Source: Methanoregula sp.
GTDB taxonomy: Archaea; Halobacteriota; Methanomicrobia; Methanomicrobiales; Methanospirillaceae
Direction of reading: 5' to 3'
NCBI RefSeq assembly: GCF_003170075.1
Contig: NZ_PMZU01000043.1
Coordinates: forward strand, 1 to 64,000
DNA: 64,000 bases
The translations under genes and the position numbers were made by a program. The stretch's first letter is position 1, and each line of letters begins with the position of its first letter. The notes beneath the pieces are model-generated. The model had not been told where the DNA came from. It saw only the letters and a list, made by a program, of their open reading frames with translations, and did not search any database. Below, in pieces: positions 37,759-40,947 of the stretch.

Positions 37759-37905
37759 TTATTCTTTAGCAGTCTCGTTCCGGACCGGGGTTTTCCTGTT
37801 CTCTGCCTTTTGTGTACAATCTTCAGTACATTGCCTGCAGGGTCCACGTCCCCGCCCGATTACCCGTCCCCGTTTCAGCGGCCCGGTCCCGTCAAAGTTC
37901 GGCAT
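37759..37905 (-). CDS. DUF5320-like small Cys-containing protein
   Basis: A 48-codon gene found by reading the gap upstream of atwA. It begins MPNFDGTGPLKRGRVIGRGR, the Gly-rich N-terminal signature of DUF5320 proteins (usual form MPxFDGTGP), followed by CRQCTEDC with Cys23, 26 and 30, which could bind a metal or Fe-S cluster. A GGGGGA ribosome-binding site precedes the ATG. The stop is 20 bp before atwA, so the two are cotranscribed. The CATATG motif lies 37 bp upstream. Function unknown; DUF5320 genes are often near Mrp/NBP35-type genes. Confidence 0.75.
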   Translation of the reverse strand: MPNFDGTGPLKRGRVIGRGRGPCRQCTEDCTQKAENRKTPVRNETAKE

Positions 37906-37932: not shown

Positions 37933-37954
37933 GGATTATTACACATATGAGCAT
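37933..37954 (-). promoter_or_regulatory. CATATG motif, site 1 (DUF5320-like/atwA/mrp unit)
   Basis: On the minus strand: TGCTCATATGTGTAATAAT, with CTTTATG at its upstream edge as a possible TATA element. It shares GCnCATATGnGTAAT with two other sites (38830 and 39943). It is placed 30-45 bp before the start codon, so it overlaps the expected promoter and transcription start. Confidence 0.6.
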
Positions 37955-38077
37955 AAAGATTTAAGGATCAAGTGCAAAAAAAGAAATCGTGCGGGAGGGA
38001 GCTTCGTACGTGCATCTCCCTGTCGCCACCGTAGCGCCGGCATTCACTCTTCCGCCATGATCCCGTATCCCGGGTAC

Positions 38078-38794
38078 TTATTTCGAACCGGCTGCACCGA
38101 TCACAATCTTTAACGCGGCAGTAATCTCGGGGAGCATCTCGGCCGGGAACCCCATCACCATCTCATCATCGGTAATTCCGGAGAACTTCCTCGATCCGTC
38201 ACAGCCGAGAGAGAAGTTCGGCCGCCCGGTCAGGTAGGTCTGTGTTGTTGCATCCGAACAGACAGACTGGATACCGGAGAACTCTGCGTAGATTCTCCCG
38301 CCAAGCCGGAAGAGCGTGCTCTGGGCGAGCTTGAGCATGTTTCTGGGCGTTGTCACGATCAGGATGACCTGCGGGGTGAATGGCGTTCTCTCCAGCGGGG
38401 CATAGAGCGTTGCATACGTCTCACCCGGGCTAAGGTGCGTGACCTTCTCGATGGTCCGTTTGCAGGCAGCCGCACTGTCAAATTTGCCCAGCTTAAAGTA
38501 AAATTCGCCGTTCTTTAAGGTCGGCGTTATCTCCTTGAGACCCAGCGCCCATGCGCCGCCGTTGCACTCATGTTTGTCCGCAGGAGCGTAGAAGATCTTC
38601 CCCTCGCTCCGGGCAAGGTTCACCATCGAACAGTGCCGGATGGTCTTGTCGAGCTCCGCCATCCCGGCCGGGATATCCTCTTTTGATGGTGCGAATCTGA
38701 TGGCTACCGGGGAGCCTTTCAGGCCCAGTATTTTTTTCAGGGTTTCCGCAGCCTCATGATAATCCACAGGTATTTTCATTGGTTCGTTGCTCAT
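38078..38794 (-). CDS. DUF169 domain protein
   Basis: A 238-residue protein. The frame is open to 38854, but that ATG lies inside the conserved CATATG promoter motif, so the ATG at 38794 (MSNEPMKIPV) is chosen. DUF169 features: GSPVAIRFAPS, CSMVNLARSEG, a C-N-GGAWALGL segment and a C-terminal SLGCDGSRKF region. Six scattered Cys suggest a metal or cluster site. Function of the family is not established; it is frequent in anaerobes. It forms its own unit in the motif-defined regulon. Confidence 0.8.
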   Translation of the reverse strand: MSNEPMKIPVDYHEAAETLKKILGLKGSPVAIRFAPSKEDIPAGMAELDKTIRHCSMVNLARSEGKIFYAPADKHECNGGAWALGLKEITPTLKNGEFYFKLGKFDSAAACKRTIEKVTHLSPGETYATLYAPLERTPFTPQVILIVTTPRNMLKLAQSTLFRLGGRIYAEFSGIQSVCSDATTQTYLTGRPNFSLGCDGSRKFSGITDDEMVMGFPAEMLPEITAALKIVIGAAGSK

Positions 38795-38829
38795 AAGAGT
38801 TGCCTCGCAATCCTCATTTCGGGAGGGGG

Positions 38830-38849
38830 TAATTACCCATATGAGCGAA
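38830..38849 (-). promoter_or_regulatory. CATATG motif, site 2 (DUF169 gene)
   Basis: On the minus strand: TCGCTCATATGGGTAATTAC, preceded by a TTTTTATG stretch. It lies 43 bp before the chosen start at 38794 and matches sites 1 and 3 over GCnCATATGnGTAAT. Confidence 0.6.
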
Positions 38850-38905
38850 AACATAAAAAGATGACGGAACTGTCAGAAACGGTCAGGAAAAAAGGCTGTG
38901 GCATC

Positions 38906-39262
38906 TTACCGGGGACACTTCGGGCACCGGCCTTCCGCTGCTTTCTGGCAACCGGCCATCTCGATCCCTTTCCCGTTCACCAGTGCATCGGCAATCTTGC
39001 GACGGGCCTCGTGCAGGTCCCGCCATGCGGTCTTACGGGAGACACCGAGTTTTTCCGCCGCTTCTTCCTGCTCCAGGCCCTCCAGATCGATGAGCCGGAT
39101 GAGCTCGATCTCATCGGGCTGCAGCAAGATCCCGGTCCCTTCCTCCTCCGGACAGCAGCAGGGCTTGTAGCAGCGCGATTCTGACGTGCTGGTGATGGTA
39201 CGCCTGAGCCGGGGTCTTCCCCGGCGGGGGCATTCATTTTGGATGGAAATCTCATCAGGCAC
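38906..39262 (-). CDS. DUF134 (UPF0251) DNA-binding protein
   Basis: A 118-residue predicted transcription regulator. The start is a GTG at 39262 with AAGGAG nine bases upstream; the first ATG nearby is out of frame. An RGRPRLRR motif is followed by a Cys cluster (CYKPCCC), the helix-turn-helix LEGLEQEEAAEKLGVSRKT and a basic helix RDLHEARRKIADAL, then CPKCPR at the C-terminus. The Cys residues may sense redox state or metal. DUF134 genes accompany Mrp-type ATPases in other anaerobes. It is the third gene of the leftward unit headed by motif site 3, so it could control its own transcription. Confidence 0.88.
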   Translation of the reverse strand: MPDEISIQNECPRRGRPRLRRTITSTSESRCYKPCCCPEEEGTGILLQPDEIELIRLIDLEGLEQEEAAEKLGVSRKTAWRDLHEARRKIADALVNGKGIEMAGCQKAAEGRCPKCPR

Positions 39263-39340
39263 TATCGCATGCTCCTTGATAGAATGTATCCGGAATAGTA
39301 TAACAGTCTTACCGGGACAGTTTGTTTTATTGATTTGTCC

Positions 39341-39637
39341 CTACCGTGTGTGGTTTTGCCGGACCGGCCGTTCCTGCACGAAATACCTCCTGAAGACCCG
39401 GTAGGGGGGTATCGTGTCCTGAAATTTTTCAATCTTTGTCACCTTATACCGGCAGGCAGCAAAGGCCCCGTTGTGGTTCCTGCCAAGAAACCCGGAAATT
39501 GCCTGACCTGACGGGCAGTCCGGTTGAAAACGGGCACGGATCTCCTGGACGGTAATCCAGCGTTCCGTGTATCCACTCTCCTTCATGTACTGCTCAAGCA
39601 GGTCAGGGATCAGAAAAGAACCGGCCGTCACTCTCAT
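39341..39637 (-). CDS. Small HTH-like protein P2, paralogue of P1
   Basis: A 98-residue protein related to the one at 34758: LLEQYMKE, RWITVQEIRARF, ISGFLGR, YKVTKIE and a PP-rich segment line up. P2 lacks the long C-terminal tail of P1. The predicted fold is a small winged helix. It lies between the Cys-rich gene (39 bp upstream) and the DUF134 gene (78 bp downstream). Role unknown; presence of one paralogue in two of three motif-headed units argues for a shared job. Confidence 0.65.
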   Translation of the reverse strand: MRVTAGSFLIPDLLEQYMKESGYTERWITVQEIRARFQPDCPSGQAISGFLGRNHNGAFAACRYKVTKIEKFQDTIPPYRVFRRYFVQERPVRQNHTR

Positions 39638-39676
39638 CGTTCCGTGCTGGTCATCTTTTGTAAAAACGGGATGATC

Positions 39677-39916
39677 TTAGTGACAACGCGGTCCATGCCC
39701 GCAGGGATGGCGTGCATTTTTGGCATCCTCTTCGGACTGGCAGCAGCAGGTATCGCCGAATTTTAAGGGGGACGTGCAGGCTTCCCGGTGGCTGACCCCA
39801 CTTTCATGTTCTTCGTGTTTTTCACCGCACGCGCAGGTATGTTCATCGATACACCCTCGCCGGGCGGGGGCGGCTGGTTTCTCGGTGTTGGTTGTGCTGG
39901 TTGTTGGTTCTGGCAT
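39677..39916 (-). CDS. Small Cys/His-rich protein
   Basis: A 79-residue soluble protein. After a Thr/Pro-rich N-terminus it carries CIDEHTCACGEKHEEH, HREACTSP, DTCCCQ and a C-terminal HPCGHGPRCH, in all nine Cys and many His. This suggests binding of metal ions or an Fe-S cluster. I do not recognise a family. It is the first gene after CATATG motif site 3 and precedes P2 and the DUF134 regulator. The Met start is the first in frame, 34 bp from the motif. Confidence 0.65.
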   Translation of the reverse strand: MPEPTTSTTNTEKPAAPARRGCIDEHTCACGEKHEEHESGVSHREACTSPLKFGDTCCCQSEEDAKNARHPCGHGPRCH

Positions 39917-39942
39917 TGTGTCACTCTGTAGTTGTGTTGTTA

Positions 39943-39964
39943 TAATTACTCATATGCGCATAAA
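39943..39964 (-). promoter_or_regulatory. CATATG motif, site 3 (Cys-rich/P2/DUF134 unit)
   Basis: On the minus strand: TTTATGCGCATATGAGTAAT, followed by TATAAC. It shares GCnCATATGnGTAAT with sites 1 and 2 and lies 34 bp before the Cys-rich gene. The TTTATG at its edge may be the TATA element. Confidence 0.6.
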
Positions 39965-40092: not shown

Positions 40093-40947
40093 ATGACAGC
40101 CCGGGTTTCCCTTTCAGTGCTGGTCGATAACAACACGCTCATCGATCGGTATTTCCTTGGGGAACCCGGTCTTTCGATCCTGATCGAAACAGGGGACCGG
40201 CGAATCCTCTTTGATACCGGTTATTCGGATGCATTCATCCGGAATGCTGAAACGATGGGGATCGACCTGCTTGACCTTGATTATGTCGTGCTCTCCCACG
40301 GTCACCTGGATCATACCTGGGGTTTGGTGCACCTTGTACAAAAACTGGCAGGGGCAGAGATTCATTCTCTTTCTCATAAAAAACCAGTCCTAGTTGCCCA
40401 TCCGTATTGTTTTTATCCAAAACCCAGCCCCCCGCTTCCAAACATCGGTTCCCTTATACCGGAAGAAGAGGCAGGACGCCAGTTTTCCCTCAGTCTTTCC
40501 GCAAAACCGTTCTGGCTTACCCCGGATCTGGTGTTCCTCGGCGAAATTCCCCGGAGGTTCGGGTTTGAACATACCGCCCCGGGCAAGCGCAGGATCGTGA
40601 TGCCTGACGGGCAGGTCGAACAGGACCAGCTCCTTGATGATTCCGCACTGGCCTGCCGTACTCCTGAAGGACTCGTGATCATTACCGGGTGCTCCCATGC
40701 CGGTATCTGCAATATCACCGAATACGCACAGGAAGTTTGCGGGGAGCGCCGGATCATCGATATCATCGGCGGGTTCCACCTGCTCAAGCCATCACCGGAA
40801 CAGATGAAAGGCACCTGTACCTATCTACGGGATCTCGCGCTAAAGGCGGTACATGCCTGCCACTGCACATCGTTATCGTCTAAAATAATTCTTGCAGAGT
40901 TTTGTCCGATCCTGGAAACAGGCGTGGGAACGAATATCGAATGGTAA
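40093..40947 (+). CDS. MBL-fold hydrolase, DHPPS-like
   Basis: A metallo-beta-lactamase-fold enzyme of the type that includes archaeal 7,8-dihydropterin-6-methyl-aminobenzene-phosphate synthase (methanopterin pathway). It has 284 residues. The metal motif is SHGHLDHTWG (His69, His71, Asp73, His74), with further ligands in TGCSHAGICN and IGGFHL, and a C-terminal HACHCTS. The N-terminal LSVLVDNNTLIDRYFLGEPG is usual for the family. It is divergent from the DUF134 regulon genes. Substrate is uncertain: similar proteins in Mrp clusters may not make pterins. Confidence 0.8.
   Translation: MTARVSLSVLVDNNTLIDRYFLGEPGLSILIETGDRRILFDTGYSDAFIRNAETMGIDLLDLDYVVLSHGHLDHTWGLVHLVQKLAGAEIHSLSHKKPVLVAHPYCFYPKPSPPLPNIGSLIPEEEAGRQFSLSLSAKPFWLTPDLVFLGEIPRRFGFEHTAPGKRRIVMPDGQVEQDQLLDDSALACRTPEGLVIITGCSHAGICNITEYAQEVCGERRIIDIIGGFHLLKPSPEQMKGTCTYLRDLALKAVHACHCTSLSSKIILAEFCPILETGVGTNIEW

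Follow-up and report, generated by a model that had tools for sequence, protein, structure and literature searches.

The structural basis of the reductive activation of methyl-CoM reductase (MCR) has recently been resolved, and no account of how this activation step is regulated was found in the literature searched. According to the parts of the source covered, MCR system component A2 (A2) of M. maripaludis co-purifies with McrC, Mmp7, Mmp17, and Mmp3 in an MCR activation complex, in which there are clusters similar to the L-cluster of nitrogenase (PMC12176620). That a methanogen can carry several A2 genes has already been reported, for the AtwA1 and AtwA2 paralogs of Methanothermobacter (PMC3087415, passages covered). 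For DUF134 proteins (UPF0251, COG1342), titles and the beginnings of abstracts in the open-access literature mention no regulon, and no description of a DUF134 operator was found in that literature.

The window, a stretch of 64,000 nucleotides from a Methanoregula sp. genome, carries three copies of one symmetric motif before operons that include genes for A2 and DUF134. As the explanation that best accounts for the whole, the three sites are probably operators of a compact regulon under the control of its own DUF134 protein.

The motif and its operons

The 15-mer GCNCATATGNGTAAT occurs exactly at three places in the whole genome (pattern searches of 1,921,434 bases in 77 contigs, 1.92 Mb), all on the minus strand within one 2-kb stretch of the window (37938-37952, 38832-38846, and 39945-39959), against an expectation of ~0.04 exact matches per genome. 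There are no copies with one mismatch anywhere in the genome. The remaining matches all have two, and at this tolerance the pattern gives 29 matches in all vs. 18 for the reversed control. With up to three mismatches, 12 matches are found in the window and 12.0 are expected, i.e., chance level, so that the strict motif alone is informative. Each exact copy stands before an operon that is read leftward, the gap to the ATG being 32 nt for the DUF5320 gene, 37 nt for the DUF169 gene, and 28 nt for a Cys-rich gene. The first-pass annotation had described three sites in 2 kb, 30-45 bp before three leftward units, and had named copies common at random positions genome-wide as grounds for refutation; the sites are exact, the distances are close to those it gave, and no further exact copy exists in the 1.92 Mb.

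A 16-bp dyad, WTRCNCATATGNGYAW, has the 15-mer as its core. Dyad site 1, ATGCTCATATGTGTAA (37939..37954, minus strand), lies upstream of the DUF5320-A2-B-Mrp-P1 operon. Its first gene (37759..37905, minus strand) encodes a small protein matching the DUF5320 family, and is followed by the gene for A2-B, the second paralog of A2 (TIGR03269; 36140..37738, minus strand). A2-B scores 851.5 bits against the NCBIfam equivalog cut-off of 517.1; each of its two ABC domains retains a Walker A motif, and a Cys4 Zn-type motif is kept as well. The third gene encodes an Mrp/NUBPL-type Fe-S carrier NTPase (PF10609; 35215..36096, minus strand), which was rejected as MrpORP because it reaches 363.7 bits with model NF041136, under the cut-off of 450, and matches model positions 3-252 of 365. 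The operon closes with P1 (34758..35162, minus strand), a paralog of P2 (~40% identical).

Dyad site 2, TCGCTCATATGGGTAA (38833..38848, minus strand), differs from the 16-bp consensus at the second base and lies upstream of a gene matching the DUF169 family (PF02596, COG2043; 38078..38794, minus strand). The start of this gene was placed at 38794 (MSNEP), and not at 38854, the longest-ORF start; a PDB sequence search with the protein gave no relative.

Dyad site 3, ATGCGCATATGAGTAA (39946..39961, minus strand), precedes the Cys-rich-P2-DUF134 operon. The first gene (39677..39916, minus strand) encodes a small Cys-rich protein with homologs in loci of the home family, Methanoregulaceae, and the second a small protein, P2 (39341..39637, minus strand), whose AlphaFold model has a winged-helix-like topology. 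The DUF134 protein itself (PF02001; 38906..39262, minus strand) scores 80.3 bits against a Pfam gathering cut-off of 27, and has a sigma-70 region-4-type helix-turn-helix with the recognition segment VSRKTAWRD. The earlier identification of the DUF5320, A2/AtwA, Mrp, DUF169, and DUF134 genes agrees with the family profile matches; no Pfam family was matched by P1, by P2, or by the Cys-rich ORF.

Site 3 also lies within the divergent gap to an MBL-fold gene (40093..40947, plus strand), a recurrent neighbor whose membership in the regulon is uncertain. Many relatives share the divergent MBL/Cys-rich layout across this dyad, and NifX/DUF134 operons at loci L145, L165, and L232 likewise contain an MBL gene. 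Relatives have a NifX-type (PF02579) protein in the regulon; no PF02579 protein was found in this whole genome, and an own-genome NifX was accordingly rejected as an overlooked target.

The dyad in relatives and DUF134 as candidate regulator

The dyad is conserved across Methanomicrobiales. The WTRCNCATATGNGYAW pattern is present in 150 of the 232 Methanomicrobiales genomes of the order set (284 sites tallied, vs. ~17 reversed-control matches), and the exact motif in 59 of the 108 Methanoregulaceae genomes, vs. a single match of the reversed control pattern. It marks DUF134-linked operons of the types NifX/MinD-ferredoxin/DUF134, DUF5320, DUF169, Cys-rich/P2/DUF134, and A2/Mrp. Sorted by first downstream gene, the 121 exact sites from the fetched loci most often precede DUF5320 (30), followed by Cys-rich (24), NifX-type (22; PF02579), A2 (11), and DUF169 (10). 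Other families of the order have the dyad mainly before NifX/MinD-ferredoxin/DUF134 and DUF5320 genes. The fuller dyad was derived from order-level DUF134 loci, where the core stands before NifX/MinD-ferredoxin/DUF134 operons and where locus L187 has the perfect palindrome TTACACATATGTGTAA. Loci of Methanosarcina, ANME-3, and Methanolliviera also have the core at their DUF134 gene. The proposal that the sites are symmetric, operator-like elements of a small regulon is supported. As a separate observation, loci L297 and L298 have repeated ATGCGCATATGCGCAT-like copies, with no DUF134 and away from regulon genes.

DUF134 (PF02001) is present in 177 of the 232 Methanomicrobiales genomes. Among genomes at least 90% complete, the dyad occurs in 96 of 121 with DUF134 vs. 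3 of 14 without it (Fisher p 2.6e-5, a value that ignores kinship and overstates the significance, since related genomes are not independent); for Methanoregulaceae alone the counts are 53 of 55 and 0 of 4. The three exceptions (G150, G154, and G155) have their sites at L295, L297, and L298, none of them beside regulon genes, and were therefore treated as unrelated. The exact dyad is missing from 25 DUF134-bearing genomes at least 90% complete, some of which have near-variants (e.g., GTACTT in L172 and L176). Genome G034 (99% complete), which has one A2 and no DUF134, keeps one intact motif before DUF169 (L108). DUF134 is the only predicted regulator persisting alongside the dyad in the order-level loci, and its own operon carries a dyad (site 3). 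By conservation, linkage, and co-loss, it is the best-supported candidate for the regulator.

Across the 37 aligned DUF134 proteins of the regulon type, two segments are conserved, one RGRPR-like and the other the recognition segment SRKT-W-D. In the AlphaFold model, the helix-turn-helix core is confident (93-95) and the rest is poor (pLDDT 72). The solved folds nearest to this model are sigma region-4 domains, as weak matches (best E-value 0.037), and a PDB sequence search gave ECF sigma and designed-protein matches only. A 97-aa DUF134 paralog with the segment SQPTFHR was seen beside a larger DUF5320-like ORF (L166, L124, and L137).

In an alignment of 128 sites labeled by downstream gene, roughly TTTAAAnTATTTATG leads into the dyad and the start codon follows ~33 nt further; the logo was made from motif-selected sites, so that its core columns are conditioned. 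The dyad lies just downstream of a TATA-like box, which it partly overlaps, and before the probable start site. This position favors repression, and DUF134 likely represses the promoters it is predicted to bind. Activation by DUF134 is unlikely: in bacteria, helix-turn-helices of the sigma-70 region-4 type contact polymerase-associated promoter elements, but in archaea the usual binding position of an activator is upstream of BRE/TATA, and the dyad is on the other side of the box. To our knowledge, sigma factors are not used in archaeal transcription.

Two A2 paralogs and other readings of the dyad

Most Methanoregulaceae genomes, including the source genome, have two A2 genes (TIGR03269 search, 108 genomes). 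The other A2 of the source genome (C76:24116-25702; L338) adjoins mmp3 and has no consensus dyad. In the fetched A2 loci, mmp3 is a neighbor in 48 of 50, the exceptions (L353 and L357) being copies fetched beside DUF134; these 48, from across the order, make up the loci of the mmp3-linked type, A2-A (48 of 48 with mmp3, TIGR03268), and mmp3 adjoins none of 100 regulon loci. In an A2 tree (quick method, 102 rows), the window copy belongs to a clade of 46 rows, A2-B, with a support of 95, and the A2-A copies are placed outside it. This placement and the absence of mmp3 from regulon loci rule out the window copy as A2-A. A second A2 is found in 44 of 55 Methanoregulaceae genomes with DUF134 vs. 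0 of 4 without it. A dyad within two mismatches is present in 43 of 46 A2-B upstream regions vs. 4 of 48 for A2-A, and an unguided 6-mer comparison of the two upstream sets ranked ATGAGC first and CATATG third.

Only two alignment columns are fixed differently between the clades and the nucleotide-binding motifs are retained; with so few fixed differences, A2-B is plausibly a working A2. At one locus (L178, genome G119), the A2 beside DUF134 is broken into three ORFs, by pseudogene formation or assembly errors. The A2 copies beside DUF134 in Methanocorpusculaceae cluster in the tree with their own family's A2, so that recruitment there looks separate. DUF134-A2 adjacency is also seen in Methanolliviera (L283) and in a Methanococci archaeon (L273).

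In the first-pass annotation, the sites were read as putting the activation of MCR itself under Fe-S or redox control, with the Cys cluster of DUF134 as the link, a reading that is now quite improbable. A2 does belong to the purified MCR activation complex (PMC12176620, parts covered), and weak near-dyads before the mmp3-linked A2 operons of G114, G216, and G231 give a weak hint that the link between dyad and MCR activation may sometimes be direct. However, the window AtwA is not the sole A2, and with only the above 4 of 48 mmp3-linked loci having a dyad within two mismatches, and the mmp3-linked A2 of the source genome being without a consensus dyad, the sites do not bring the whole of MCR activation under this control. 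Cysteines of the CYxPxC, GC, and CPKC kind are present in most Methanoregulaceae DUF134 proteins aligned, and the window protein has cysteines at C31 and C113, but such cysteines are missing in the dyad-bearing relatives L169, L173, and L185; Cys-based sensing therefore cannot be general, and a general redox-sensing mechanism via these residues is unlikely. The view of DUF134 as the natural candidate regulator is supported by its conservation, linkage, and co-loss with the dyad. What had been redox control of MCR activation is reduced to a DUF134 regulon whose members include an Fe-S carrier and the second of two A2 paralogs.

It is very improbable that the protein binding the dyad is not DUF134 but, for example, the winged-helix-like P1 or P2, with DUF134 as a passenger or co-factor. 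P2 adjoins DUF134, P1 closes the A2-B operon, and the predicted H-E-H-H-E-E topology (AlphaFold) resembles a winged helix, the PDB fold matches of the P2 model all being weak. Against this, a P1/P2 profile matches nothing in the order-level dyad loci, nor in the DUF134 loci of the order that lie outside Methanoregulaceae. These proteins are confined to Methanoregula-type loci whereas dyads persist beyond them, and the regulator-like gene retained there is DUF134. P1/P2 are ruled out by distribution as the universal dyad binder, and could have a role in control within Methanoregulaceae. A core-promoter or RNA element can be practically dismissed: the motif does sit at the TATA/start region of every operon, but it has three copies in the genome, serves one gene set, is symmetric, and is mostly absent where DUF134 is absent.

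The proposed regulon and described systems

The argument for a DUF134 regulon is built on sequence (motif, conservation, linkage, co-loss, and paralogy), from which we infer binding, the sign of control, the signal, and the action of A2-B on MCR. A DUF134 dimer would bind WTRCNCATATGNGYAW and, judging from the position of the dyad by the TATA-like box, most likely block transcription initiation. Under its control would thereby come DUF169, the DUF5320/A2-B/Mrp/P1 operon, and the operon in which DUF134 itself is encoded. Since the dyad precedes NifX-type/MinD-ferredoxin-NTPase/DUF134 and DUF5320/NifX operons in relatives, the ancestral regulon looks like one for Fe-S or metal-cluster handling, which the pairing of A2 with an Mrp-type carrier, and with NifX-type proteins in relatives, also fits. 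Methanoregulaceae would have recruited a duplicate of A2 into it, as would Methanocorpusculaceae in what looks like a separate event, the mmp3-linked A2 having stayed out. The signal for release of repression may be Fe-S or metallocluster status, which is a guess. Derepression would raise the cluster carriers and the extra A2, probably restoring the activation of MCR where the regular machinery does not suffice. We offer only tentatively that DUF134 senses the supply of Fe-S or nitrogenase-type metalloclusters, and induces the second A2 and carriers as a back-up for MCR re-activation when supply or redox state fails.

For the DUF134 family, a candidate operator and a set of targets would now be defined throughout a methanogen order, many Methanomicrobiales would keep a second A2 under separate control, and DUF169, DUF5320, and NifX/MinD-ferredoxin proteins would be joined in one regulon. 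A2-B and its operator also make the regulation of MCR activation testable.

DUF134 resembles the DNA-binding domains of sigma-70 region 4 and ECF sigma factors in helix-turn-helix family and fold, but no sigma region 2 is seen in it and the fold matches are weak. For AtwA1/AtwA2 of Methanothermobacter, the passages covered mention no DUF134 link or shared operator (PMC3087415). The Orange-protein/Mrp clusters of Desulfovibrio share Mrp-type NTPases with this locus, and NifX-like proteins stand alongside in relatives; as far as that report was covered, they differ in that the window Mrp falls below the MrpORP cut-off and the source genome is without a PF02579 protein (PMC6345978). Compared with A2 of the M. 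maripaludis complex, A2-B stands apart from mmp3, falls in a clade of its own, and is preceded by a dyad; it is likewise full-length by the cut-off and keeps the ATP-binding and Cys4 motifs (PMC12176620, parts covered).
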